Notes under the pieces: generated by a model
What the model was told of the DNA's origin: nothing
What the model saw: only the letters and a program-made list of their open reading frames with translations
Databases searched by the model: none
Shown here: positions 4,205 through 18,359 of the stretch, piece by piece
Position numbering within the stretch: the first letter of the stretch is position 1
How the letters are laid out: every line of letters begins with the position of its first letter
Origin: a virus
Length of the DNA stretch: 20,137 bases
Reading direction: 5' to 3' (one strand)
IMG/VR virus record: IMGVR_UViG_3300018080_000699
Span: 1-20,137 of that record
Made by a program: the position numbers and the translations under genes

Positions 4205-4957
4205 ATGATTCGCACAGCACAACATCACCACCCGGAGTGGTATCTGGCTGGCGCCGCCGCCCCGGGCTTCCACGTCTATGGCGGCCTGGGTAGCGCGGAG
4301 GTGCTCGAACCGGACGCCGATCTGTTCACCGCGGCTGCCGCCCCGGCTGCCGGCAACACGGCCGCCCGCTTCCGTATGGCCGCCTACGACGGCGGGCTGC
4401 TGCTGGGGATCCGCGGCTACCCTTATCCAGTTGTCGTTGACCTGGATAGCCTGAGATTCGCCCAGCGGAAGCCCGTCTTTCGGGAACACGATCGGCTGCG
4501 GATCGTTGGTCACACCGAACAGATCCAGCTGCAGAAGTACCGGATTGGCGCCGCCGGCATCATCTCCGGCGTGGGCCAGGACGCCCTCGACGTCCGCGGG
4601 TCCGGAGCGAACGGTTTCCCGTGGCAGTCTTCCATCGGCGTCCGTCCCGGTTTGGTCGGGTTCGTGTCCCAGGGCGAAGTCGTCCGCGTCAATGCCCGGG
4701 TCTTCAAGGGGCCCGTGTACATTGCCCGCAGCGGCGCCTTGATGGAAATCTCCTTCGTCTCGATCGGCGCCAACGCCGCCGCCACCGCCAAGGTTCTCGC
4801 CGCTCATCAAATGTGGCGCAAGTTCCAAGCTAACGTGGGGAACTCGCCCCGCGCATTTCAACCGAATGTGGGGAACTCGCTCCGCGAGTTCCGTCACGAC
4901 TCGCCAAGCGGGTCGCCCATTGCACCGCACCCACACTCCTTTTCCTTGCAAGGATAG
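4205..4957 (+). CDS. HK97-type prohead serine protease, C-terminus encoded by repeat array
   Basis: The protease is expected to cleave scaffold and capsid termini inside the prohead. The family signature is seen as a beta-rich start (RFRMAAYDGGLLLGIRGY), a His region with two candidates (H95 in REHDRLR, H103 in VGHTEQ), a nucleophile region WQSSIGVRPG with S142 or S143, and the hallmark C-terminal strand EISFVSIGANAAATAKVL at about 181-198. Family members usually end near this point. Here the frame continues through array R4, adding about 47 residues (NVGNSLREF and relatives) that are not normal protease sequence. In related phages I recall the protease fused to the capsid protein; here they are separate and out of frame, with the array at the junction. 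Start ATG 4205 follows AGGGAAGG. Confidence 0.85.
   Translation: MIRTAQHHHPEWYLAGAAAPGFHVYGGLGSAEVLEPDADLFTAAAAPAAGNTAARFRMAAYDGGLLLGIRGYPYPVVVDLDSLRFAQRKPVFREHDRLRIVGHTEQIQLQKYRIGAAGIISGVGQDALDVRGSGANGFPWQSSIGVRPGLVGFVSQGEVVRVNARVFKGPVYIARSGALMEISFVSIGANAAATAKVLAAHQMWRKFQANVGNSPRAFQPNVGNSLREFRHDSPSGSPIAPHPHSFSLQG
4811..4920. repeat. Palindromic array R4, translated at the protease C-terminus
   Basis: Two forward units start at 4835 (degenerate, GCCCCGCGCATTTC) and 4868 (canonical), exactly 33 nt apart. An inverted degenerate unit follows at about 4897-4920. A faint copy may begin at 4811. The whole array lies inside the open reading frame of the prohead protease and encodes residues about 204-238. 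Confidence 0.9.
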
Positions 4958-4964
4958 ACGACCC

Positions 4965-6788
4965 ATGATCCCAGCCAACGATTGGACCCAGTACCTGACC
5001 CCGCAACAGGTCGACGATTACCTGGCCGCCGGCAACAACCCGCCGCCCATCGTCGCGCACGACCCGGGCGCCGTGCCGGACCCGTCTCTGCAGCCGCAGG
5101 CCGTGCAGGCCGCGGCCCCGGCAGCGCTGCCGTATCCGTACAACGTGATGCCGCAGCAGCTGCAACCCGCCCAACCCGTCGCGCCCCAACCCGCGGCCCC
5201 GGCTGCCGCTTTCCCGGGCCTTCCCCCCCAGGCTCCCGTGGCCGCCGCCGCGCAACCGCCCGCGCCATCTTACCCGGCGTGGCCCGGATACCCGCAGGCC
5301 ACGGCGTCCCCCCCGAGCCAACCGGGCGCGACGTCACCACCCGCCCCCCAGCCCGGGCAAGCGGCCCAGCCACCGGTTACCGCGGCCGAAGCGCAGCCAC
5401 TGACCGACGAGGAACGGAACGCGCGGGCCATCGAGTTGGAACATGGCCGACGCGAAATCTGCGCCCGCTACAACAACCCCACCATGACCGTGGGTGAAGG
5501 CGACGAGGCGCGGGACGTGCCCGTGCTGGCCCAGGCCGTCCGCGAGAATTGGGACCTGCGACGTACGGAGCTGGAAGCGCACCGCGCCGCGCGGCCCAGC
5601 GGTCCGGCGGTTCACGGCGTCACGCCACCGCACGAGACCGACCAGAGCATCCTCACGGCCGCGCTCTCGATCAACAACGGCTGCGCGCCCGACTTCGCCG
5701 CCGAGAGATTTGGCGAACGAACCATCGACGCCGCCATGACCGGACAGTTCCAGTCGTTCAACCTGGTAGCCCTGATGCACGCGACCCTGCAGGCCGCCGG
5801 CCGCTACGCACCCGCCGGCCAGCTGAATGACGGATTCATGGAAGCTGCCTTGATGGCCGACCGAGAAATCCGGGCCGCGGGCCAATTGTCCACCATTTCC
5901 TTGTCGAACGTGCTCAGCGGCGCGGCCAACACGCACCTGCTGGAAGCCTACCGCGGTGTGGCCGCGGTGTGGCCGCAGATTTGTGGCACGACCAGTCACA
6001 ACAACTTCCACTCCCACACGTACTACCGCCTGGGCGGCGACGGCGAGTACAAGGAAGTCAAACCGTCGGGCGACCTGGAACACGCCACCGTGACCGAAAC
6101 GGAGGTGTACAGCAACCAGGTCACCACCTATGGCCGCATTCTGTCGATCACCCGCGTGGACATGAAGAACGACTCGCTGGGCGCCTTTATGAAGCAGGTC
6201 CGCCACATGGGCCGCAACGGTGCCATGAAGCCCGACAAGGTCTTCCACCAGTTGCTGCTCAACGGGGTGACCAGCGGATTCTTCGTCTCTGGCACCAACC
6301 TGACGTATGGCACCGCCTACGTGCTGGGTGTCGATGCTCTGCGGTCGATCGTCACGGCCTTCAACAAGCAGACGGACGGCAACGGCGACCCCATCGGCGT
6401 GACCAACCCGCGACTGCTGGTACCGACCGAGCTGGGCGGGCTGGCCGACGATATGTACCGTCACGAGAAGGTGGACGTCTCGAGCGGTTCGAAGGTCCGC
6501 ACCACCGACAACCCGCACCGCGGCAAGTACCTGCCGGTCGAATCGCCCTGGCTGAGCAACACCCAGTTCAGCAACTACTCCACGACCGGCTGGTATCTCT
6601 GCAACGATCCGGCGGATTTGGCCGTGGCCGAGATCGCTTTCCTGGACGGCAACCGCACGCCCAAGATCTTCCGCGGCTACGCCAACATCGCCCAACTGGC
6701 AATGCAATTCGCCTTCGTGCACGACTTCGGCATCGCCCTGGCCGAAAGCAAGGCCGCCCACTTCGTGCCCGGCGTGGCCGCTCCGTAA
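4965..6788 (+). CDS. Major capsid protein with Pro/Ala-rich N-terminal extension
   Basis: The start ATG 4965 is supported by CAAGGA at 4949-4953; an open extension to 4866 only translates the array. Of 607 residues, about 35-145 are Pro/Ala/Gln-rich and probably disordered, 150-200 form charged helices (TDEERNARAIELEHGRREIC), and from about residue 229 (ILTAALSINNG) the capsid core follows. Core features include STISLSNVLSGAANTHLLEA, YYRLGGDGEYKEVKPSGDLE, the loop VYSNQVTTYGRILSITRVDM, PHRGKYLPVESPWLS, and the terminal FAFVHDFGIALAESKAA. This matches the capsid half of the prohead-protease/major-capsid fusions found in Mu-like and related phages, an HK97-fold subunit. The N-terminal region may act as a scaffold (delta) domain removed by the protease; that is an inference. 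Confidence 0.88.
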   Translation: MIPANDWTQYLTPQQVDDYLAAGNNPPPIVAHDPGAVPDPSLQPQAVQAAAPAALPYPYNVMPQQLQPAQPVAPQPAAPAAAFPGLPPQAPVAAAAQPPAPSYPAWPGYPQATASPPSQPGATSPPAPQPGQAAQPPVTAAEAQPLTDEERNARAIELEHGRREICARYNNPTMTVGEGDEARDVPVLAQAVRENWDLRRTELEAHRAARPSGPAVHGVTPPHETDQSILTAALSINNGCAPDFAAERFGERTIDAAMTGQFQSFNLVALMHATLQAAGRYAPAGQLNDGFMEAALMADREIRAAGQLSTISLSNVLSGAANTHLLEAYRGVAAVWPQICGTTSHNNFHSHTYYRLGGDGEYKEVKPSGDLEHATVTETEVYSNQVTTYGRILSITRVDMKNDSLGAFMKQVRHMGRNGAMKPDKVFHQLLLNGVTSGFFVSGTNLTYGTAYVLGVDALRSIVTAFNKQTDGNGDPIGVTNPRLLVPTELGGLADDMYRHEKVDVSSGSKVRTTDNPHRGKYLPVESPWLSNTQFSNYSTTGWYLCNDPADLAVAEIAFLDGNRTPKIFRGYANIAQLAMQFAFVHDFGIALAESKAAHFVPGVAAP

Positions 6789-11045: not shown

Positions 11046-11263
11046 ACCGACTCGACCAGATGGCCACGGCCTACGTGAGCCAGCAATGGAACCACACGGC
11101 CAGTTTACAGGCCACCTTAATCAACCTGCACACCACGGAAGATAGCGACCCCGTTACGCCGGAGGAACTCCACCCGCTGATCGACACGCCGGAAACTAGA
11201 CCACCCGACGTGCCCCAGGAAATGACTTTCAGCGTCCTGGCCGCCGCCTTCCTCCGTGATTGA
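11021..11263 (+). CDS. T extension of the tail assembly chaperone (made as GT by -1 frameshift)
   Basis: The frame one base back from G is open from 10766 to the TGA at 11261-11263. After a slip at 11015-11021 it adds 80 residues, ICPDPYTLNRLDQMATAYVS and on through QQWNHTASLQATLINLHTTE to FSVLAAAFLRD, giving a GT fusion of about 243 residues. The motif D-P-x-T-L-x-x-L-x-x-M followed by a Trp helix is what T domains of this kind show. An ATG at 11060 exists, but a separate start would cut off DPYTLNRL and is less likely. The T part normally recruits the tape measure protein. The downstream gene starts 20 nt after this frame ends. Confidence 0.65.
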   Translation: MCPDPYTLNRLDQMATAYVSQQWNHTASLQATLINLHTTEDSDPVTPEELHPLIDTPETRPPDVPQEMTFSVLAAAFLRD

Positions 11264-11283
11264 ACAATAGCAAGGAAGCTAAC

Positions 11284-11787
11284 ATGGCATCCGACCAACC
11301 CAGTGTGATTCGCGGAAAACAGCATTTCCTTGATGACTGTAGCTTCGCGGTCATCGTGTTGCCGTCGTCCTGCATCACCAACACCATGATCGCCGCCGCG
11401 GCTGCGATCGACGCCACCAAGCTCGAGCAGCAGTACACGCCGGAATATGCCCAGCCGTCGGGCCAGCCGGCCTATGCTGAAACGAAAAAGCTACACACCA
11501 CCTACGCCGCCGGCGACGTGATTGCTTTTGAAGCCGGGTCCGTGTTGCCAAACCTGGACGGGGCCACCGTCGACGTCGACCTCCAGGTGGACGGCGCCAG
11601 CATCCTCACGGCCGCCGTTGAACTCGACGACACGCACACCGCCTACGAGATCGTGTCCGGCACGATCGATACCGAAGACATCGCCGCAGGCAAGGTGCTC
11701 ACGGTTGTCATCACGCCCACCCCAGGCACCGGCTCCTGCGCCCAGGGCGTCTTCTGCCGGGCCATCGTCCGCGAAGCCGCGGAGTAA
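11284..11787 (+). CDS. Beta-rich virion-type protein, 167 aa
   Basis: The start is ATG 11284, with CAAGGAAGC at 11271. The N-terminal half (residues about 1-80) carries a cysteine pair (C19, C29) in FLDDCSFAVIVLPSSCITNT, an Ala-rich stretch and AQPSGQPAYAETKKLHTTY. The C-terminal half reads as a beta sandwich: AAGDVIAFEAGSVLP, ATVDVDLQVDGASILTAAVE, KVLTVVITPTPGTG and AQGVFCRAIVREAAE. The pattern of a strand with V-D-G-x-S-I-L-T followed by a late V-x-I-T-P strand recalls the C-terminal domain of the decoration protein at 6898 and other head- or tail-decorating modules. No enzyme motif and no signal peptide are seen. I assign a structural role with low certainty. It opens the block that separates the chaperone from the tape measure. 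Confidence 0.6.
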   Translation: MASDQPSVIRGKQHFLDDCSFAVIVLPSSCITNTMIAAAAAIDATKLEQQYTPEYAQPSGQPAYAETKKLHTTYAAGDVIAFEAGSVLPNLDGATVDVDLQVDGASILTAAVELDDTHTAYEIVSGTIDTEDIAAGKVLTVVITPTPGTGSCAQGVFCRAIVREAAE

Positions 11788-11828
11788 ACCGACGCCTACA
11801 CTCACACCACTCCACAAAGGATCACGCT

Positions 11829-12239
11829 ATGTATGCAGATCTGAAAGCGCTTTTTGAAGGCAACGGTCTAATCATGCTGATCGTCGGCCTGGTCATCGGC
11901 GGTCTTCCGCTATTCAACGGCAAGACAATCATCCAACTGCTATTGGGACTGATCCCCCAACCCGAGTCGTCCCGGACCATCGAACGGGCCCGCCGGCTGG
12001 CGGCCGACGACGCCGAGCGAAAGGCCCGCGCCCAACTGGCGCAGGCGAGGTTCGAGCAAACCAAGGCGGCCTTGCCCGACGGGTTGAGCAACGACGAGAT
12101 CTTCCGCGCATCTGGCCTCCACGGCGGCATCCTGGACATCATCAAAACCTTTCTGCCAAACGTGTCGCCGATCCTACTGATCGGCGGTGCAATTGTGGTC
12201 TTCCTGCTGTTTTCCGGAAGTTTCTCCGGCTGCACCTAA
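11829..12239 (+). CDS. Membrane protein with two hydrophobic segments, holin-like candidate
   Basis: The 136-residue protein has a first hydrophobic segment at residues 13-29 (GLIMLIVGLVIGGLPLF), a second short one at about 33-43, a highly charged helix at 49-82 (RTIERARRLAADDAERKARA and on), and a clear membrane segment at 113-130 (SPILLIGGAIVVFLLFSG) with only SFSGCT after it. No signal-peptidase site is apparent. AAAGGATCAC gives a good ribosome-binding site. Its size and hydrophobic-charged-hydrophobic layout could suit a holin or a membrane anchor, but no family is recognised. The adjacent papain-like peptidase and anchored protein make a membrane or envelope role plausible. R11 starts one base after its TAA. 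Confidence 0.6.
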   Translation: MYADLKALFEGNGLIMLIVGLVIGGLPLFNGKTIIQLLLGLIPQPESSRTIERARRLAADDAERKARAQLAQARFEQTKAALPDGLSNDEIFRASGLHGGILDIIKTFLPNVSPILLIGGAIVVFLLFSGSFSGCT

Positions 12240-12240
12240 T

Positions 12241-12360
12241 GTGGGTGACTCGCTCCGCGAGTCACAACCGAATGTGGGTGACTCGCTCCGCGAGTCACAA
12301 CCGAATGGGGGGGCTCGCTCCGCGAGTCCCAGACTCCGACTGACGGAGCGAGTCGGCCAC
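12241..12360. repeat. Palindromic array R11, 4 units
   Basis: Forward units start at 12241, 12274 and 12307, exactly 33 nt apart. The first two are identical GTGACTCGC/GCGAGTCAC forms; the third is GGGGCTCGC/GCGAGTCCC. An inverted unit, CCGACTGAC, GGA, GCGAGTCGG, CCAC, ends at 12360. The array begins one base after the TAA of the membrane protein gene. Confidence 0.97.
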
Positions 12361-12379
12361 CTTGTCCCGGGACAATCCC

Positions 12380-13696
12380 ATGCCGCGCAACACCCTGCTC
12401 TTGATCGTCCTGCTGATCGCCGCCGCCCTGGCCCTCACCCAGTGCCAGGGTCCGGACCCGGTCGACCCGGCCGGGCTGCCGCGGGTGATCCTCTGCCTGC
12501 GGCATTTGGGCCGCGGCACGCTCGACGACGTCCACCAGGCGTGGCAGATCCGGGAAGCTATCGACGCTAGCGCCGACCCCGACACGCCCGCCTTCTTCTG
12601 GCTGCCAGCCACGGCGAAAGACCAGCGGCTCCGCCCACACGGCGGAGTCGCTGCGTACGCCGCCCTGGGCAAGCCGCTGCCCTACTGCTGGGACATCGTG
12701 GTCACCGACACCGGCCCGCGAATCATCCACGAGGGGCCGCTGGACGCCGAGCAGGTGCTCAGTTGGGCCGGGCTGGTACCGCGAGCCCCTCCCGCGGGCG
12801 ACGCGTCGACAATCCCCGACGTGCCGCTAGACGTGGATTTCGCCGCGGAGGCCCCCGAGCTGTGCGGGTACCGGCCGACCCCCGAACTGTGCCGAGGCAT
12901 GGAGCAGGCCGCGGTCCGCAATATCCGCGAACTGCCGGGATTCGAGCCGATCCCCAAGGCCGATTGGCCTAAGTGGTGCGACCGCTTCCCCATCGAACGC
13001 CTGGCGGGCCCCGTCTACCACACCACCGAGCAGGTGATGGGCAGCTGCGTGGGCCATTCGGCCATGAACGGGATCGAGGGCCCCCGGGGCCTGATGTTCG
13101 GTCGCCGGGCCGAGACCTGGCTCTCTGCGATCAGCATGTACCACTTCATCGGCCGCAGTCCCGGGTCCGGGGCCTTTATCGGCGACGCGGCCGACCGGCT
13201 GGCGTCAATCGGTATCCTGCCCGCCGACAACAGCCCCGACGCGTCCGACTGGCGGCACGCGCACCAGGACGTGGGCGGGTTCTACGACGCCTTACCGGCG
13301 GGTTACGAAGCGACAGCGGAGTGTTTCCGGGCCGAGGTCTACTACGTCGACGACGAGGAAGCATGGTTTGCCGTCACCATGCGCGACGGCCTGCGGGTCC
13401 ATCTTGGCCGGTCGCAGCACGCCATCTCGGGCCTGGGGGTGGTCTGCGAACGTGGGAGACTCGCTCCGCGAGTTCCAACCCAACGTGGGAGACTCGCTCC
13501 GCGAGTCTTGACCTCCGACTCGCTCCGCGAGTCGGCCACACCTACCGCCCCGCGCTACCGCTGGGCCTACGAAAACAGCTGGGGCACGGACTGGGGCGCC
13601 CTGGGCAAATCGATCGGATTCGACAGCCGCATGTATCCGGGCCGCGTATACGTGCCCGTGGTGCATGACGGCATCCCGATACCGTCGGTGAACTAA
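12380..13696 (+). CDS. Papain-like cysteine peptidase with in-frame palindromic insert
   Basis: ATG 12380 gives 438 residues; a TTG at 12362 is possible but less likely. Residues 5-20 are a hydrophobic signal or anchor (TLLLIVLLIAAALALT) followed by Cys22, which lacks a canonical lipobox (Gln at -1). The C1-type catalytic set is visible: C223 in MGSCVGHSAMNG, H347 in RSQHAISGLG, and N399 in YENSWGTDWG. Residues about 24-200 form an unassigned N-terminal region. Residues about 358-388 (RGRLAPRVPTQ repeated, then SDSLRES) are encoded by array R12, between the His and the Asn, in frame and without a stop. The catalytic motifs on both sides of the insert are intact, so the enzyme may still be active. 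Such peptidases are rare in tail modules. An envelope or lysis role is only context-based. Confidence 0.82.
   Translation: MPRNTLLLIVLLIAAALALTQCQGPDPVDPAGLPRVILCLRHLGRGTLDDVHQAWQIREAIDASADPDTPAFFWLPATAKDQRLRPHGGVAAYAALGKPLPYCWDIVVTDTGPRIIHEGPLDAEQVLSWAGLVPRAPPAGDASTIPDVPLDVDFAAEAPELCGYRPTPELCRGMEQAAVRNIRELPGFEPIPKADWPKWCDRFPIERLAGPVYHTTEQVMGSCVGHSAMNGIEGPRGLMFGRRAETWLSAISMYHFIGRSPGSGAFIGDAADRLASIGILPADNSPDASDWRHAHQDVGGFYDALPAGYEATAECFRAEVYYVDDEEAWFAVTMRDGLRVHLGRSQHAISGLGVVCERGRLAPRVPTQRGRLAPRVLTSDSLRESATPTAPRYRWAYENSWGTDWGALGKSIGFDSRMYPGRVYVPVVHDGIPIPSVN
13452..13540. repeat. Palindromic array R12, inside the papain-like peptidase
   Basis: Forward units start at 13452 and 13485 (33 nt apart) and a final unit spans 13515-13539. 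The final unit ends with the inverted-type border GGCCAC but carries the forward-type loop TCC, so its loop is flipped relative to its arms. All units are read in the peptidase frame as RGRLAPRV-type sequence. Confidence 0.97.
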
Positions 13697-13697
13697 C

Positions 13698-13726
13698 GTG
13701 GGAGACTCGCTCCGCGAGTCGGCCAC
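13698..13726. repeat. Minimal palindromic unit R13
   Basis: A single 29-nt unit begins one base after the TAA of the peptidase gene. It carries the forward border GTGG on the left and the inverted-type border CCAC on the right, around GACTCGC, TCC, GCGAGTC. It is thus the shortest complete version of the element. Confidence 0.93.
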
Positions 13727-13754
13727 ACAGACGCCCATACCAACGGAGAACCAA

Positions 13755-14285
13755 ATGAACCGCCAAACCGTGATTGCTGTACTCAGCCTGGCCGCCGTGG
13801 GCGGCTACGCCGCCAACCAGACCCCGGGCGGACAGGCCCTGGCCACCCCCGAAGCACCGCTCATGGCCCCGGCCGCGATCGCCGACGACGACACGGAGAC
13901 CCCCGCGCCGATCGACACGGCCCGTCTGCAGCGGGTGAGCGACGAACAGACCCGCGTGCTAATCGCCCTGGCGGGCCGCCTGGACGATCTCCAGGCGACC
14001 GTCGATGACCTGGCAGAAGAACCAGGGGAACCCGCTCCGGAAGTTCCAACTGAACGTGGGGACGGTGAATGTGGGGAACTCGCTCCGCGAGTTCTCACCT
14101 CCAACTCGCGGAGCGAGTTGGCCACGTTAGGCCGCCTGCAATTTCACCGAGGCCAACCCGTGCGGAACGCTGGCCGGGCCGCCCTGCGAGCGCCGGCCCG
14201 GGCCGCTCGAGGCGTGTTTCGGGCCGCCCGCGCCGTCTTCCGCTGGCGACCGTTCGCCCGCATCCGTGCCCGGCGCTGCGGGTAG
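13755..14285 (+). CDS. N-terminally anchored protein with coiled coil and Arg-rich tail
   Basis: ATG 13755 follows ACGGAGAACC. The 176-residue product starts with a short signal or anchor (residues 3-20, RQTVIAVLSLAAVGGYAA), then a Pro/Ala/Thr linker, a heptad-like helix at about 53-88 (TARLQRVSDEQTRVLIALAG, continuing LDDLQATVDDLAEE), a segment at 89-125 encoded by array R14 (CGELAPRVLT, NSRSELATL), and a C-terminal 51-residue tail with 15 arginines and several aromatic residues (VFRAARAVFRWRPFARIRAR). The tail looks membrane-active or nucleic-acid-binding. It may once have been a separate small gene that was joined by the array. I recognise no family. The gene lies between two peptidase genes, so a partner role at the membrane is possible. 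Confidence 0.6.
   Translation: MNRQTVIAVLSLAAVGGYAANQTPGGQALATPEAPLMAPAAIADDDTETPAPIDTARLQRVSDEQTRVLIALAGRLDDLQATVDDLAEEPGEPAPEVPTERGDGECGELAPRVLTSNSRSELATLGRLQFHRGQPVRNAGRAALRAPARAARGVFRAARAVFRWRPFARIRARRCG
14022..14127. repeat. Palindromic array R14, inside the Arg-rich protein gene
   Basis: A decayed unit at about 14022-14047 (GGGGAACCCGCTCCGG, then AAGTTCC) is followed by a short disturbed stretch, a good forward unit at 14071-14095, and an inverted unit at 14101-14125 with CCAACTCGC, GGA, GCGAGTTGG and CCAC. The array is translated in frame. Confidence 0.93.
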
Positions 14286-14345
14286 GCAGTCTTTTGACAT
14301 CCAGCACTTGTACGAACCAAAAACCTGAACGCGGAGATCGAAACA

Positions 14346-15284
14346 ATGCGAATTTTTCTGCTGCCATCCGTCGTGTGTTTGGCGTGCCTCGCCAACATCG
14401 CTTTCGGCGACTCCGTCGGAACCAAGTTGCAGGCCGTGTCCGTCAACATCAAGGCACCGGGAAAATACGGCCAAGGCTCCCAAGGTTCCGGTACCGTGAT
14501 TCTCCGCCAGGTCGACGGCAAACAAAACGCCTTCGTGCTGACCGCGGCCCATGTCATTCGGGGTCTGCGGGATGTCTCCGACGCGATCGTCGACGGCAAG
14601 GAAAAGAAAATCGTCACCTACCGCGACGCCCAAATTGTGCAAGAGGTCGGCAATAACGACAACAGCCGGATCGTCGGCGATACCCGCTTAGACGCCAAGG
14701 TCATTGCGACCGACTACCGAAGGGACATTGCCCTGTTACGTGTTCGCGCGGTGGGAACGCTCAAGTCTTCCGCCAGGTTTTACGACGGACCGCTGCCCGA
14801 AGTCGGCACGGAGGTCTACCACTGCGGCGCTCCAGGTGGCCAGGATACCGGCGGCACGGCCACCCTAACGGCCGGCATTATCAGCCGTACCGGGGTGCGG
14901 ATCGCAGAATATGGCGGGGCGGAACACGGCATTTTCGATCAAACCGACACCGCGGCACTCCCCGGGTCATCGGGCGGGCTGTTGGCTACCCGGCAAGATG
15001 GCCATTGGATTGGAATGATCACCCTGGGGTTACGGGGCGGCGACAACTTCCACTGGTTCGTACCCATCCGCAATGTTCGTGAATGGTCGCAGGAGGCCAA
15101 GTGCGAATGGTTGCTCAAACACGACGGCAATGCCACCGAAAAGGCGGTCGGTGAAATCCCGCTGGAACTATCGCCTCCGGAAGTCAGTGGCGGCAACGCC
15201 GCGCCATCCGGGACGATGCGGAACGTCATCAGACACACTACAATTTTCAACCCGTTTTCCAGGCAGATCACCGCAAGCGACTAG
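14346..15284 (+). CDS. Secreted trypsin-like serine protease
   Basis: The 312-residue product has a Sec signal peptide at residues 1-21 (MRIFLLPSVVCLACLANIAF, ending near GDS) and a chymotrypsin-fold S1 domain. The triad is visible: H69 in FVLTAAHVIRG, D127 in YRRDIALLRV, and S209 in LPGSSGGLLA. The sequence VYHCGAPGGQDTGG before the Ser region and GWIGMITLGLRG-like strand after it fit S1C-type (HtrA-like) and glutamyl-endopeptidase-like proteases; no PDZ domain follows, and the C-terminal 60 residues are unassigned. GCGGAGATCG at 14332 is the likely ribosome-binding site. It carries no palindromic insert. An exported protease in the tail module is unusual; attack on host envelope proteins or processing of virion proteins are both conceivable. 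Confidence 0.88.
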   Translation: MRIFLLPSVVCLACLANIAFGDSVGTKLQAVSVNIKAPGKYGQGSQGSGTVILRQVDGKQNAFVLTAAHVIRGLRDVSDAIVDGKEKKIVTYRDAQIVQEVGNNDNSRIVGDTRLDAKVIATDYRRDIALLRVRAVGTLKSSARFYDGPLPEVGTEVYHCGAPGGQDTGGTATLTAGIISRTGVRIAEYGGAEHGIFDQTDTAALPGSSGGLLATRQDGHWIGMITLGLRGGDNFHWFVPIRNVREWSQEAKCEWLLKHDGNATEKAVGEIPLELSPPEVSGGNAAPSGTMRNVIRHTTIFNPFSRQITASD

Positions 15285-15287
15285 CCC

Positions 15288-15938
15288 ATGCTCTGGCGAT
15301 TCATCCACATTCCGAAGACCGGCGGCACGGCCATCCGCCGCGTCTATGGCCAGGGAAATTGTGGGGAACTCTCCCCGCAAGAATGTGGGGAACTCGCTCC
15401 GCGAGTTCCAACCTCCGACTCGCGGAGCGAGTCGCCCACATTAAACCTGCGCTGCGGTCACCTGCCAGCCTCCTGTTTCCCGCCTGACGTGTTTTGCTGG
15501 GCCGTGCTGCGGAACCCGTTCGACCGAGCTGTCAGCATCTGCGGGCACCTCTACCGAGGTCTGGGGGTCAAGATCACGCCGGGACTGTTCCGCCAATGGG
15601 TACGCGACGATTTCCCGACCTCCGTCAAGCAGGGCAGTGAAACCGTGGCCTTCATGGGCTACGCCTGCGACGCCTTGAAGCTGAAGGTCACCGACCCCCA
15701 GGCCCGTTGGATCGACGATCGTACGCAACTGTTGCCCTATTGGGATCTCGAAAGACACCTGCACGCTTTGGTGCGGCAATTGGGCCTCGAGCCGCAGGCC
15801 CTGCCGCGAGTCAACGAAAGCAACCGCGACCGCGGCTACCTGCACTACTACGACGACAAGACCCTGATTACCGTGCACGATCGCTACCGCCAAGACTTCA
15901 AATTGTACGACGCCCTAGCCGACAAAATCCCCGACTAA
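15288..15938 (+). CDS. Small sulfotransferase with in-frame palindromic insert
   Basis: The protein of 216 residues has the two PAPS-binding motifs of Sulfotransfer_2-like enzymes: HIPKTGGTAIRR at residues 7-18 (5'-phosphosulfate loop) and VLRNPFDRAVS at 73-83 (3'-phosphate-binding). A GHLP element at 57-60 and the late DRYRQDFKLYDAL at about 198-210 also fit the family. Residues about 25-51 (CGELSPQECGELAPRVPT, then SDSRSESPTL) are read from array R15 and do not belong to the family. The gene starts 3 nt after the protease stop. Its predicted role is transfer of a sulfuryl group from PAPS to a sugar or protein; the acceptor is unknown. Members are usually somewhat longer, even without an insert. 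A phage could use it to modify host surface glycans, which is inference. Confidence 0.8.
   Translation: MLWRFIHIPKTGGTAIRRVYGQGNCGELSPQECGELAPRVPTSDSRSESPTLNLRCGHLPASCFPPDVFCWAVLRNPFDRAVSICGHLYRGLGVKITPGLFRQWVRDDFPTSVKQGSETVAFMGYACDALKLKVTDPQARWIDDRTQLLPYWDLERHLHALVRQLGLEPQALPRVNESNRDRGYLHYYDDKTLITVHDRYRQDFKLYDALADKIPD
15361..15442. repeat. Palindromic array R15, inside the sulfotransferase gene
   Basis: A shortened unit at 15361-15382 is followed after 24 nt (33 minus 9) by a canonical forward unit at 15385-15409, then by an inverted unit at 15415-15441 with CCGACTCGC, GGA, GCGAGTCG and CCCACATT. The missing 9 nt equal three codons, so the frame is kept. Confidence 0.95.
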
Positions 15939-16031: not shown

Positions 16032-18179
16032 ATGGCTTCCTCATCCGATGTCCGAGCCGGCCGCGCCTTTGTTGAGCTGTACCTCAAGAAGGGTCTCATG
16101 GTCAAAGGGCTGCAACAGGCGCAACGCCGCCTGGTCGCCTTCGGCGGCATGATTCGCGGCATCGGAACCAAGATTTTTGCGGCGGGCAGCGGTGTGGCCG
16201 GGTCGTTTGTCGCGGCGGCAAAACAATTTGCCGGGTCCGGTGCGGAGCTGGCCAAGCTATCCAGGCAAACAGGCGCCAGCGTCGACCAGCTCTCACGCCT
16301 CCGATCGATGGCCCAACAAACCGGAGTTGATTTTGAGGACGTCGCTGGCGCCACCGAAGAACTTAACATTCGTCTGGGCGAGGCGATCCAGGATAAAACC
16401 GGCCCCCTATATGAATCCTTTCAGAAGCTGGGACTGAGCGCTCAACAACTCGCCGACATGCCCGTGACCGAGCGTTTTGCCACGATTGGCGAAGCATTGC
16501 GGGGGATCCAAAACCAAGCAGAACGAGGATTTCTGGCGGACGAAATCATGGGCGGCGACGCCTTCAAAATGCTCCCCTTGTTGATGCGTGGCAGGGAAGG
16601 CTTCGCCGCGCTAAACCAGGAAGCCGAACGTCTCGGGTCTGTCATGTCCGAAGACGACGCCAACGCCGCGGTGGCGCTGACCAATGCCTGGACTGATCTG
16701 AAAGAGGTCATGGGAAACGCCGTCAATAAGGCCGGGGCAGCGGTCGCATCGACGATTACCGATGTCATTAACAAAATCGTGCACTTGGTTTCCTTGATCT
16801 CCAAGTGGATCAACGAAAATCGCGAGCTGGTGAAGACCATCTTCAAGGTGGGCGCCCTCGTGGCCGGTATCGGGGCCGGATTGATCTTGGCCGGTACCGG
16901 GATCATTTTCATTGGCACCGCCCTGGGCAGTCTGGCCAGCATCTTCAGCGGCATCGCCACCGTGTTGGGTTTCGTGCTCTCGCCCATCGGATTCCTGATC
17001 GCCGGTGTCACGGCCTTGACCGTCTACTTCTTCAAGTTCACCGAGACGGGACGCAAAACCGCCAGCATTCTGGGCGACGCCTTCAATCGAGTTGCCGACG
17101 TGTTCCGCGCAACCTGGGGCGGAGTCGTCGACGCCATCAAGGCCGGCGACCTGCAACTGGCCGGCAAAATCGCGGTGACTGGCCTCAAGCTGGCATTCAT
17201 CGACGGCATGCTCGCTTTGCGCGGCCTGGTGGGCGACGACGTGGTTGCCATCGCCGGCTACCTGGCCAGCGGCGACCTGTCCGGCGCCTGGAACCATACG
17301 CTCAAGAGCCTGGGCAAAATGTGGCATACGGTGTGGTCCGGGATGGTCAATGTGTTTAGCACTATTGCAAAACAGATTGTCGGTATTTGGTCGAAAGGCA
17401 TCGAACTGATTGGCAAGGGCATGACTCGCCTAGCCCACATGCCCGGCTTTCGCCAAGCGTTCAAAGCGTATTCGGGCGTCGACTTAGTCGAGCTGGAGGA
17501 AAAAAACCGGCAACAGCACATTGAGGCTCGAAAGAAGGATCAAGAAAACATTGCCAAATGGCAGGCCATCCGCGACAAGGCGCAGGCGGAAGGCAGAAAG
17601 GTGCAAGGCTACACGGCGGAAGAGGCACAACGTCACATCGACATGCTACGCGAGCACATGCAGACGCTGGGCGACAAGGGCCCGGACCTCCTCGCGGCGA
17701 TGGACAAGGCCATTGAAGAGGATGCAAAGCAGAAACAAGAAAAGCTAGAAGATTACCTTAATACGCTCGACGAGCAGGCCGCCGAGGCCGAAGCCTGGTC
17801 AGAACGCGAAGCCGACGACAGCCGCGAAGAGGGGCTCAAACGGCTGCGGGAGCAGGCCGCCCAGACACGAAAAGAACTCGGTTTGCTCCGCAAGGAAGCC
17901 GCCGACGCCGCCGCGGCGGCAGCCGCCGAGCGCGGAAAACTACCCGGCGGCGGTCGCGACGACCTCGCCCGTGGACTGATGGGCGCCGAATCCCGGGCCC
18001 GGACCGCCGTGACCTTTTCCGCCCAGGCCGCCAGCATGCTGGGGGCCAGTGGCGAGGGGGCCAAGATCGCCCAGGCCACCCAGGGCAGCTTCGCCATTCT
18101 CCGCAAGATCTGGGAAGAACGCCGCCGCAATCGCCAATACCTTCGCAAGCTGGCCAGGATGCCCGACGCTTTCGAATGA
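16032..18179 (+). CDS. Tape measure protein
   Basis: At 715 residues this is a short tape measure protein, which would set a tail of modest length. The N-terminus (residues about 8-75) is the usual amphipathic start with GLQQAQRRLVAFGGMIRGIG, and the block TGASVDQLSRLRSMAQQTGV, VDFEDVAGATEELN, LPLLMRGREGF is a recurrent tape measure pattern. A hydrophobic region at about 270-337 (VAGIGAGLILAGTGIIFIGT and on to PIGFLIAGVTALTVYFF) probably inserts in the host membrane during DNA ejection. Residues about 480-640 are long charged helices and coiled coil, rich in Glu, Lys and Gln. The C-terminus ends with RRRNRQYLRKLARMPDAFE. It contains no palindromic insert, in contrast to the accessory genes upstream. 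Confidence 0.92.
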   Translation: MASSSDVRAGRAFVELYLKKGLMVKGLQQAQRRLVAFGGMIRGIGTKIFAAGSGVAGSFVAAAKQFAGSGAELAKLSRQTGASVDQLSRLRSMAQQTGVDFEDVAGATEELNIRLGEAIQDKTGPLYESFQKLGLSAQQLADMPVTERFATIGEALRGIQNQAERGFLADEIMGGDAFKMLPLLMRGREGFAALNQEAERLGSVMSEDDANAAVALTNAWTDLKEVMGNAVNKAGAAVASTITDVINKIVHLVSLISKWINENRELVKTIFKVGALVAGIGAGLILAGTGIIFIGTALGSLASIFSGIATVLGFVLSPIGFLIAGVTALTVYFFKFTETGRKTASILGDAFNRVADVFRATWGGVVDAIKAGDLQLAGKIAVTGLKLAFIDGMLALRGLVGDDVVAIAGYLASGDLSGAWNHTLKSLGKMWHTVWSGMVNVFSTIAKQIVGIWSKGIELIGKGMTRLAHMPGFRQAFKAYSGVDLVELEEKNRQQHIEARKKDQENIAKWQAIRDKAQAEGRKVQGYTAEEAQRHIDMLREHMQTLGDKGPDLLAAMDKAIEEDAKQKQEKLEDYLNTLDEQAAEAEAWSEREADDSREEGLKRLREQAAQTRKELGLLRKEAADAAAAAAAERGKLPGGGRDDLARGLMGAESRARTAVTFSAQAASMLGASGEGAKIAQATQGSFAILRKIWEERRRNRQYLRKLARMPDAFE

Positions 18180-18181
18180 CC

Positions 18182-18334
18182 GTGGGTGACTCGCTCCGCG
18201 AGTCACAAGCCAACGTGGGGAACTCGCTCCGCCAGTTCCAACCTAACGTGGGGAACTCGCTCCGCCAGTTCCAACCTAACGTGGGGAACTTGCTCCGCAA
18301 GTTCCAATCCCGACTCGCGGAGCGAGTCGGCCAC
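18182..18334. repeat. Palindromic array R17, 5 units, with a recent duplication
   Basis: Forward units start at 18182, 18215, 18248 and 18281, each 33 nt apart, and an inverted unit ends the array at 18310-18334. The second and third 33-mers (18215-18247 and 18248-18280) are identical, including an uncompensated change in the right arm (GCCAGTTCC instead of GCGAGTTCC). The array begins 2 nt after the tape measure TGA. Confidence 0.97.
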
Positions 18335-18359
18335 AGACGACGCGCAAGGACGCGCCACC

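Follow-up and report, generated by a model that had tools for sequence, protein, structure and literature searches.

REPs are canonically tagged by the tetranucleotide GTAG, and their association with RAYT, a Y1 tyrosine transposase, takes the form of a RAYT gene with repeats on its flanks; to our knowledge, this association is not universal among REPs. The part of the 2013 survey by Di Nocera and colleagues considered here describes GTAG-tagged REPs with GTGG as a frequent variant in Opitutus terrae, accepts GTGG and GTRG among the tag variants, and includes members in Planctomycetes (PMC3733652). It further reports that REPs cluster at gene 3' ends, where their termini often provide the stop codon, and that many intragenic REPs, occurring as dimers or groups, encode 20–30 residues, the Planctomycetes-Verrucomicrobia group included (PMC3733652). 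The RPE-4/6 elements of Rickettsia conorii are described there as CGTC-tagged, and GTAG and CGTC repeats are treated as two superfamilies of one kind (PMC3733652).

We analysed a DNA stretch of 20,137 bases (hereafter the window), an IMG/VR virus record whose phage genes (Pfam, PHROGs) include those for portal, Mu-gpT-like capsid, major tail and tape measure; the portal, capsid and tape measure are encoded intact. One of its genes, encoding a papain-like cysteine peptidase, contains an array of palindromic repeats (R12) that is very probably a planctomycete GTRG-tagged REP/BIME cluster, inserted in a gene of a tailed phage or prophage and tolerated as an in-frame loop; the host of this phage or prophage is probably a planctomycete. 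The likeness to the GTAG REPs and BIMEs in the compared text of PMC3733652, including the GTAG-20 elements of O. terrae with their tag mutated to GTGG, extends to the short hairpin with GTRG at one foot, to inverted pairs and clusters lying mostly just 3' of genes and frequently abutting stops, and to some copies within ORFs (encoding 20–30 aa). In contrast, the window tag is mostly GTGG, the exact 15-mer core ACTCGCTCCGCGAGT was found neither in the text compared nor in the wider literature text searched, the arrays are very dense in this phage record, and linkage to a RAYT gene was not found. Rickettsia RPEs (RPE-4/6) are likewise palindromes tolerated in frame within protein genes, but they are alphaproteobacterial, bear a CGTC tag and have a core unrelated to that of the GTRG-tagged window repeat.

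The array within the peptidase gene

The peptidase gene and the units of R12 lie at the following window positions.

12380–13696, plus strand: ORF of the papain-like cysteine peptidase (438 aa, counted from the ATG at 12380); its profile matches cathepsin K (E 8.8e-6)
13449–13542, plus strand: R12, in-frame REP cluster of two direct units and one inverted-tag unit, reading ERGRLAPRVPTQRGRLAPRVLTSDSLRESATPT
13452–13473, plus strand: direct unit 1, GTGG tag and hairpin core (13459–13473)
13485–13506, plus strand: direct unit 2, GTGG tag and core (13492–13506), 33 nt past unit 1
13518–13539, minus strand: closing unit, core (13518–13532) followed by CCAC, the inverted GTGG tag (13536–13539)

The encoded protein starts with a hydrophobic N-terminus with a lipobox-like ALTQC, followed by an N-terminal region of about 190 aa and the papain-like domain with C223 (13046–13048), H347 (13418–13420) and N399 (13574–13576; numbering from the ATG at 12380). 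The original prediction, that these three catalytic residues are intact and that the array lies between H347 and N399 without frameshift or stop, was confirmed: the frame stays open through 13696, all three R12 cores are exact copies of the 15-mer, and downstream of the array the frame retains ENSWGTDWG and further positions conserved with homologues. Folded as RNA, R12 reaches −48.3 kcal/mol (z = −5.0 against shuffles), and the palindromic array is not a product of chance.

Assignment of the peptidase relied on profile and fold comparison. As a single sequence it found no match in Pfam or PHROGs, its N-terminal half has no Pfam family match, and a tblastn search of phages returned no match for the peptidase, whereas the profile comparison with the PDB returned the cathepsin K match listed above. 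The catalytic Cys, His and Asn occur in this order with NSWG context and are invariant in the alignment of the homologues, except for one (L114) with Gln for Asn. The AlphaFold model of the repeat-free homologue L112 (mean pLDDT 54, pTM 0.60) has papain-family chains at the top of its list of PDB matches (Foldseek E about 2e-3, prob 0.99), and a second fold comparison gave Z up to 7.4 against papain-family enzymes, which is middling only. The papain-like call is thus supported by profile and fold comparison while escaping single-sequence detection. As the repeat-free homologues score 11–15 bits against PF00112, below the curated cut-off of 20.7, we label the enzyme papain-like and do not file it as a C1 member. 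With family C1 (cathepsin K, PF00112) it shares the Cys-His-Asn order and the NSWG motif and, through its homologues, the His-Asn spacing of 20 residues and the papain-like fold predicted by the L112 model; it differs in its remoteness below the Pfam cut-off, in the additional N-terminal region and in the repeat loop that places 32 residues between its His and Asn. The N-terminal extension (12380–12950) is possibly a fused, derived thioredoxin-like domain. The gene belongs to a cargo region (11260–15938) of peptidase, trypsin-like (PF13365) and sulfotransferase-like genes between the tail genes and the tape measure, a region that the syntenic G099 prophage has in much shorter form.

Insertion site relative to repeat-free homologues

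A search of 398 genomes of the class containing UBA4732 yielded three peptidase homologues, and further ones came from two scans of viral contigs with alignments. After removal of duplicates, six distinct homologues (L098=L106, L099, L100, L107, L112=L113 and L114) with 24–32% identity were retained; none carries the repeat, and the genomes with peptidase homologues contain zero cores. L098/L106 have a thioredoxin-like ORF (CIYC) apart from the peptidase gene, which it either overlaps or follows (L106 1500–1970). The Cys-to-His spacing is 124 residues in the window and 123–124 in the homologues, except for L114 with 133. In contrast, the His-to-Asn spacing amounts to 20 residues in all six homologues (counted to the Gln that replaces Asn in L114) and to 52 in the window, so that the net insert is 32 residues or 96 nt, within one residue of the approximately 31 originally predicted.

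In the cathepsin K profile alignment, R12 falls on the hairpin connecting the His and Asn strands, where cathepsin K has a hairpin of its own. AlphaFold modelled the window protein too poorly for use as evidence (mean pLDDT 42), so the structure around the loop was deduced from homologues. The L112 model shows a turn at residues 213–214 between strands 202–212 and 215–222 (local pLDDT about 70–80), and this turn corresponds to the window junctions C356/E357 and A390/P391. Alignment and homologue model together place the R12 insert at the tip of the hairpin that joins the two strands. The comparison with repeat-free homologues proposed in the original prediction therefore maps the insert to a hairpin turn, and at this site the homologues have a short turn only and not unrelated sequence of the same length. 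We infer that R12 was gained in the window lineage rather than lost in every relative.

The repeat family and its in-frame copies

A paired-core scan across 84,980 genomes of prokaryotes yielded 69 stretches, the majority in Planctomycetaceae or Gemmataceae. The planctomycete stretches have a GTAG or GTGG tag, a hairpin containing the core ACTCGCTCCGCGAGT and an inverted second unit, which is the same anatomy as in the window arrays. The window repeat is a short, hairpin-forming palindrome in many copies, as in REPs and BIMEs, with a GTRG tetranucleotide at one hairpin foot (GTGG in the window, GTAG or GTGG in the planctomycete genomes); its units form inverted or alternating clusters, most of them direct units with an inverted closing unit, and 14 of the 18 window arrays lie outside genes, in keeping with the mostly intergenic placement of REPs near gene 3' ends. 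Neither the CGTC tag nor the sequence of the Rickettsia palindromic elements was found. Judged from sequence, R12 belongs to a planctomycete-type, GTRG-tagged family and forms an intragenic REP/BIME cluster. The original prediction had regarded it as an unrelated phage or planctomycete analogue of the Rickettsia elements; a palindromic repeat tolerated in frame it is indeed, whereas the word unrelated does not hold, given the GTAG/GTGG REP anatomy and the standing of the two groups as sister superfamilies. Since intragenic GTAG/GTGG REPs are already described in the compared text of PMC3733652 from 2013, R12 is a fresh case of a known phenomenon.

A strict repeat pattern gave no match in viral and genome contigs, and a looser one returned mainly chance matches in viral contigs, plus L009. 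In this contig (4280–4360), one GTAG-tagged inverted pair with the same core stands directly after a TAG stop. A Chlamydiae MAG (MGLY; L054, L055, L080, L084) likewise has repeats in pairs, their core (ACTCGCAGAGCGAGT) being related and their flanks different.

The R12-type consensus unit of 33 nt (11 codons) is stop-free in all six frames, although individual arrays, R12 among them, have at least one closed frame. Two further window arrays are read in frame within genes.

15380–15444, plus strand: REP doublet in a sulfotransferase-like ORF (15288–15938, phrog_3347), in the R12 phase, GAA TGT GGG ... ECGELAPRVPTSDSRSESPTL
14018–14130, plus strand: partly degenerate REP array in a small ORF (13755–14285), in the R12 phase

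Like R12, both are read in the phase xAA YGT GGG. Outside the window, a Gemmataceae MAG (L051) has an MnmE that includes SLAPRVTVSGAFRNDDSRSESPTL, again in the R12 phase, with nothing comparable in homologues at 63–66% identity; here the GTAG tag falls across the codons AGT AGG, which takes its TAG out of frame. In UBA4732, a polytopic membrane protein (L037) carries a three-unit array of about 34 extra residues, and its homologues match both flanks with about 8 residues between. A relaxed codon-position filter for further in-gene arrays returned mainly shadow ORFs, and only these two cases were confirmed with homologues. With regard to a mobilising enzyme, Y1_Tnp was found in all repeat-bearing genomes (11/11), Y1 transposases are also present in three repeat-free genomes, and none of the 32 transposase loci examined for RAYT linkage has an adjoining repeat.

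According to the interpretation we favour, the peptidase gene of a tailed (pro)phage would have received a REP cluster with this core, which added a loop of 32 residues, hydrophilic and probably disordered, to the tip of the β-hairpin linking the His and Asn strands. It would be tolerated because its net length of 96 nt preserves the frame, the phase is stop-free and the added hydrophilic loop lies at a hairpin tip. The repeat most likely propagates as a REP, possibly spread in trans by a RAYT-type transposase, and most in-gene insertions would presumably be lost by selection, the survivors being those that keep the frame and land in loops. We expect the R12 loop to be disordered and harmless and the predicted enzyme activity to be retained. 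The main rival explanation is that R12 inactivated the peptidase and that the gene is a recent, still-open pseudogene in a prophage, its frame kept by chance (about 1 in 3). The three perfect cores suggest that the insertion may be recent, and both the position of the gene in a cargo stretch that is so much shorter in the G099 prophage and the lack of a family match for the N-terminal half would suit such decay. However, ENSWGTDWG and other conserved positions persist after R12, the portal, capsid and tape-measure genes of the record are intact, and MnmE retains a similar insertion in a repeat-bearing genome, which together make inactivation unlikely.

Far less probable still is a co-opted loop that alters specificity, anchors the enzyme or serves as a cleavable activation loop. 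The use of one phase (LAPRV...SRSES) out of six possible by the three in-gene window arrays and MnmE would speak for it, but the common phase may merely reflect which phases lack stops and hydrophobics, and the loop protein simply translates the repeat consensus, its cores are perfect, and adaptation at the protein level is not seen. The reading of the insert as an ancestral variable loop of the peptidase family that is merely repeat-like draws on the differing loop lengths of the papain family and on the low identity of the homologues; it is refuted by the DNA-level identity of R12 to 17 further window arrays, including exact 15-mers, and the spacing of exactly 20 between His and Asn in every homologue leaves it next to no credence. 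For the favoured REP insertion, R12 thus provides a well-controlled case of a cluster tolerated within a catalytic domain, its site resolved by six homologues to one hairpin turn.

Array density and possible remodelling of the phage record

Within 20.1 kb, the exact 15-mer occurs 28 times, with 0 occurrences read backwards, and allowing three mismatches or fewer raises the count to 47 units, grouped in 18 arrays that cover 1,562 bases or 7.8% of the record. The arrays (n = 18) consist of 33-nt direct units, most with an inverted closing unit, between GTGG and CCAC tags. The densest genome found, UBA4732, holds 109 exact cores in 6.8 Mb as compared to 28 in 20 kb of the record, the phage's host not being among the genomes searched; it is this density in a phage record that is unusual. 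Nearly every gene junction bears an array, as represented by the following examples.

4830–4925, plus strand: array between the prohead-protease and major-capsid domains, which are one ORF in relatives
12236–12365, plus strand: four-unit array (+++-) beginning at the stop codon of ORF 11829–12239, just 5' of the peptidase gene
13693–13731, plus strand: single unit, its tag beginning 1 nt past the peptidase stop TAA (13694–13696)
18177–18339, plus strand: largest array (++++-), beginning at the tape-measure stop codon

Eight of the 18 arrays begin 1–2 nt past a stop codon (e.g. 2204, 8447, 8986, 12236 and 13693), and nine of the ten asymmetric arrays are oriented with transcription. Where an array follows a TAA stop, the last two bases of that codon double as the leading AA of the unit (AAYGTGG), and the element may in this way contribute to the stop codon; R12 and the two other in-gene arrays read GAA (sense) at this point.

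No core was found in the syntenic relatives (the G099 prophage, L139 and L140), and some corresponding junctions are short, the G099 prophage, for instance, having 16 and 17 nt versus about 325 and 162 nt in the window; the arrays were therefore most simply gained in the window lineage. The region 4205–6788, encoding prohead protease and major capsid, is one ORF in L140 and in two G099 prophage regions, whereas in the window the two domains do not share a frame, a new start lies at 4965 and the 4830–4925 array separates them. Comparison with these relatives makes a repeat-associated fission of the protease-capsid gene possible; protease and capsid are perhaps separate in L139 too, so that either arrangement may be the ancestral one. 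Arrays at nearly every junction, a leading AA that regenerates stops, the prevailing orientation with transcription and the protease/capsid split prompt a tentative suggestion, which we hold to be less likely than not: the REP family would have expanded within the phage lineage itself, instead of merely drifting in from the host, and would be remodelling the viral genome while its enzymes tolerate it.

The density of the phage record and the array between the protease and capsid domains merit follow-up. Intragenic REPs, known before in genomes, are herewith extended to a phage record and, if the density is phage-specific, phages could carry REP families between planctomycete hosts.
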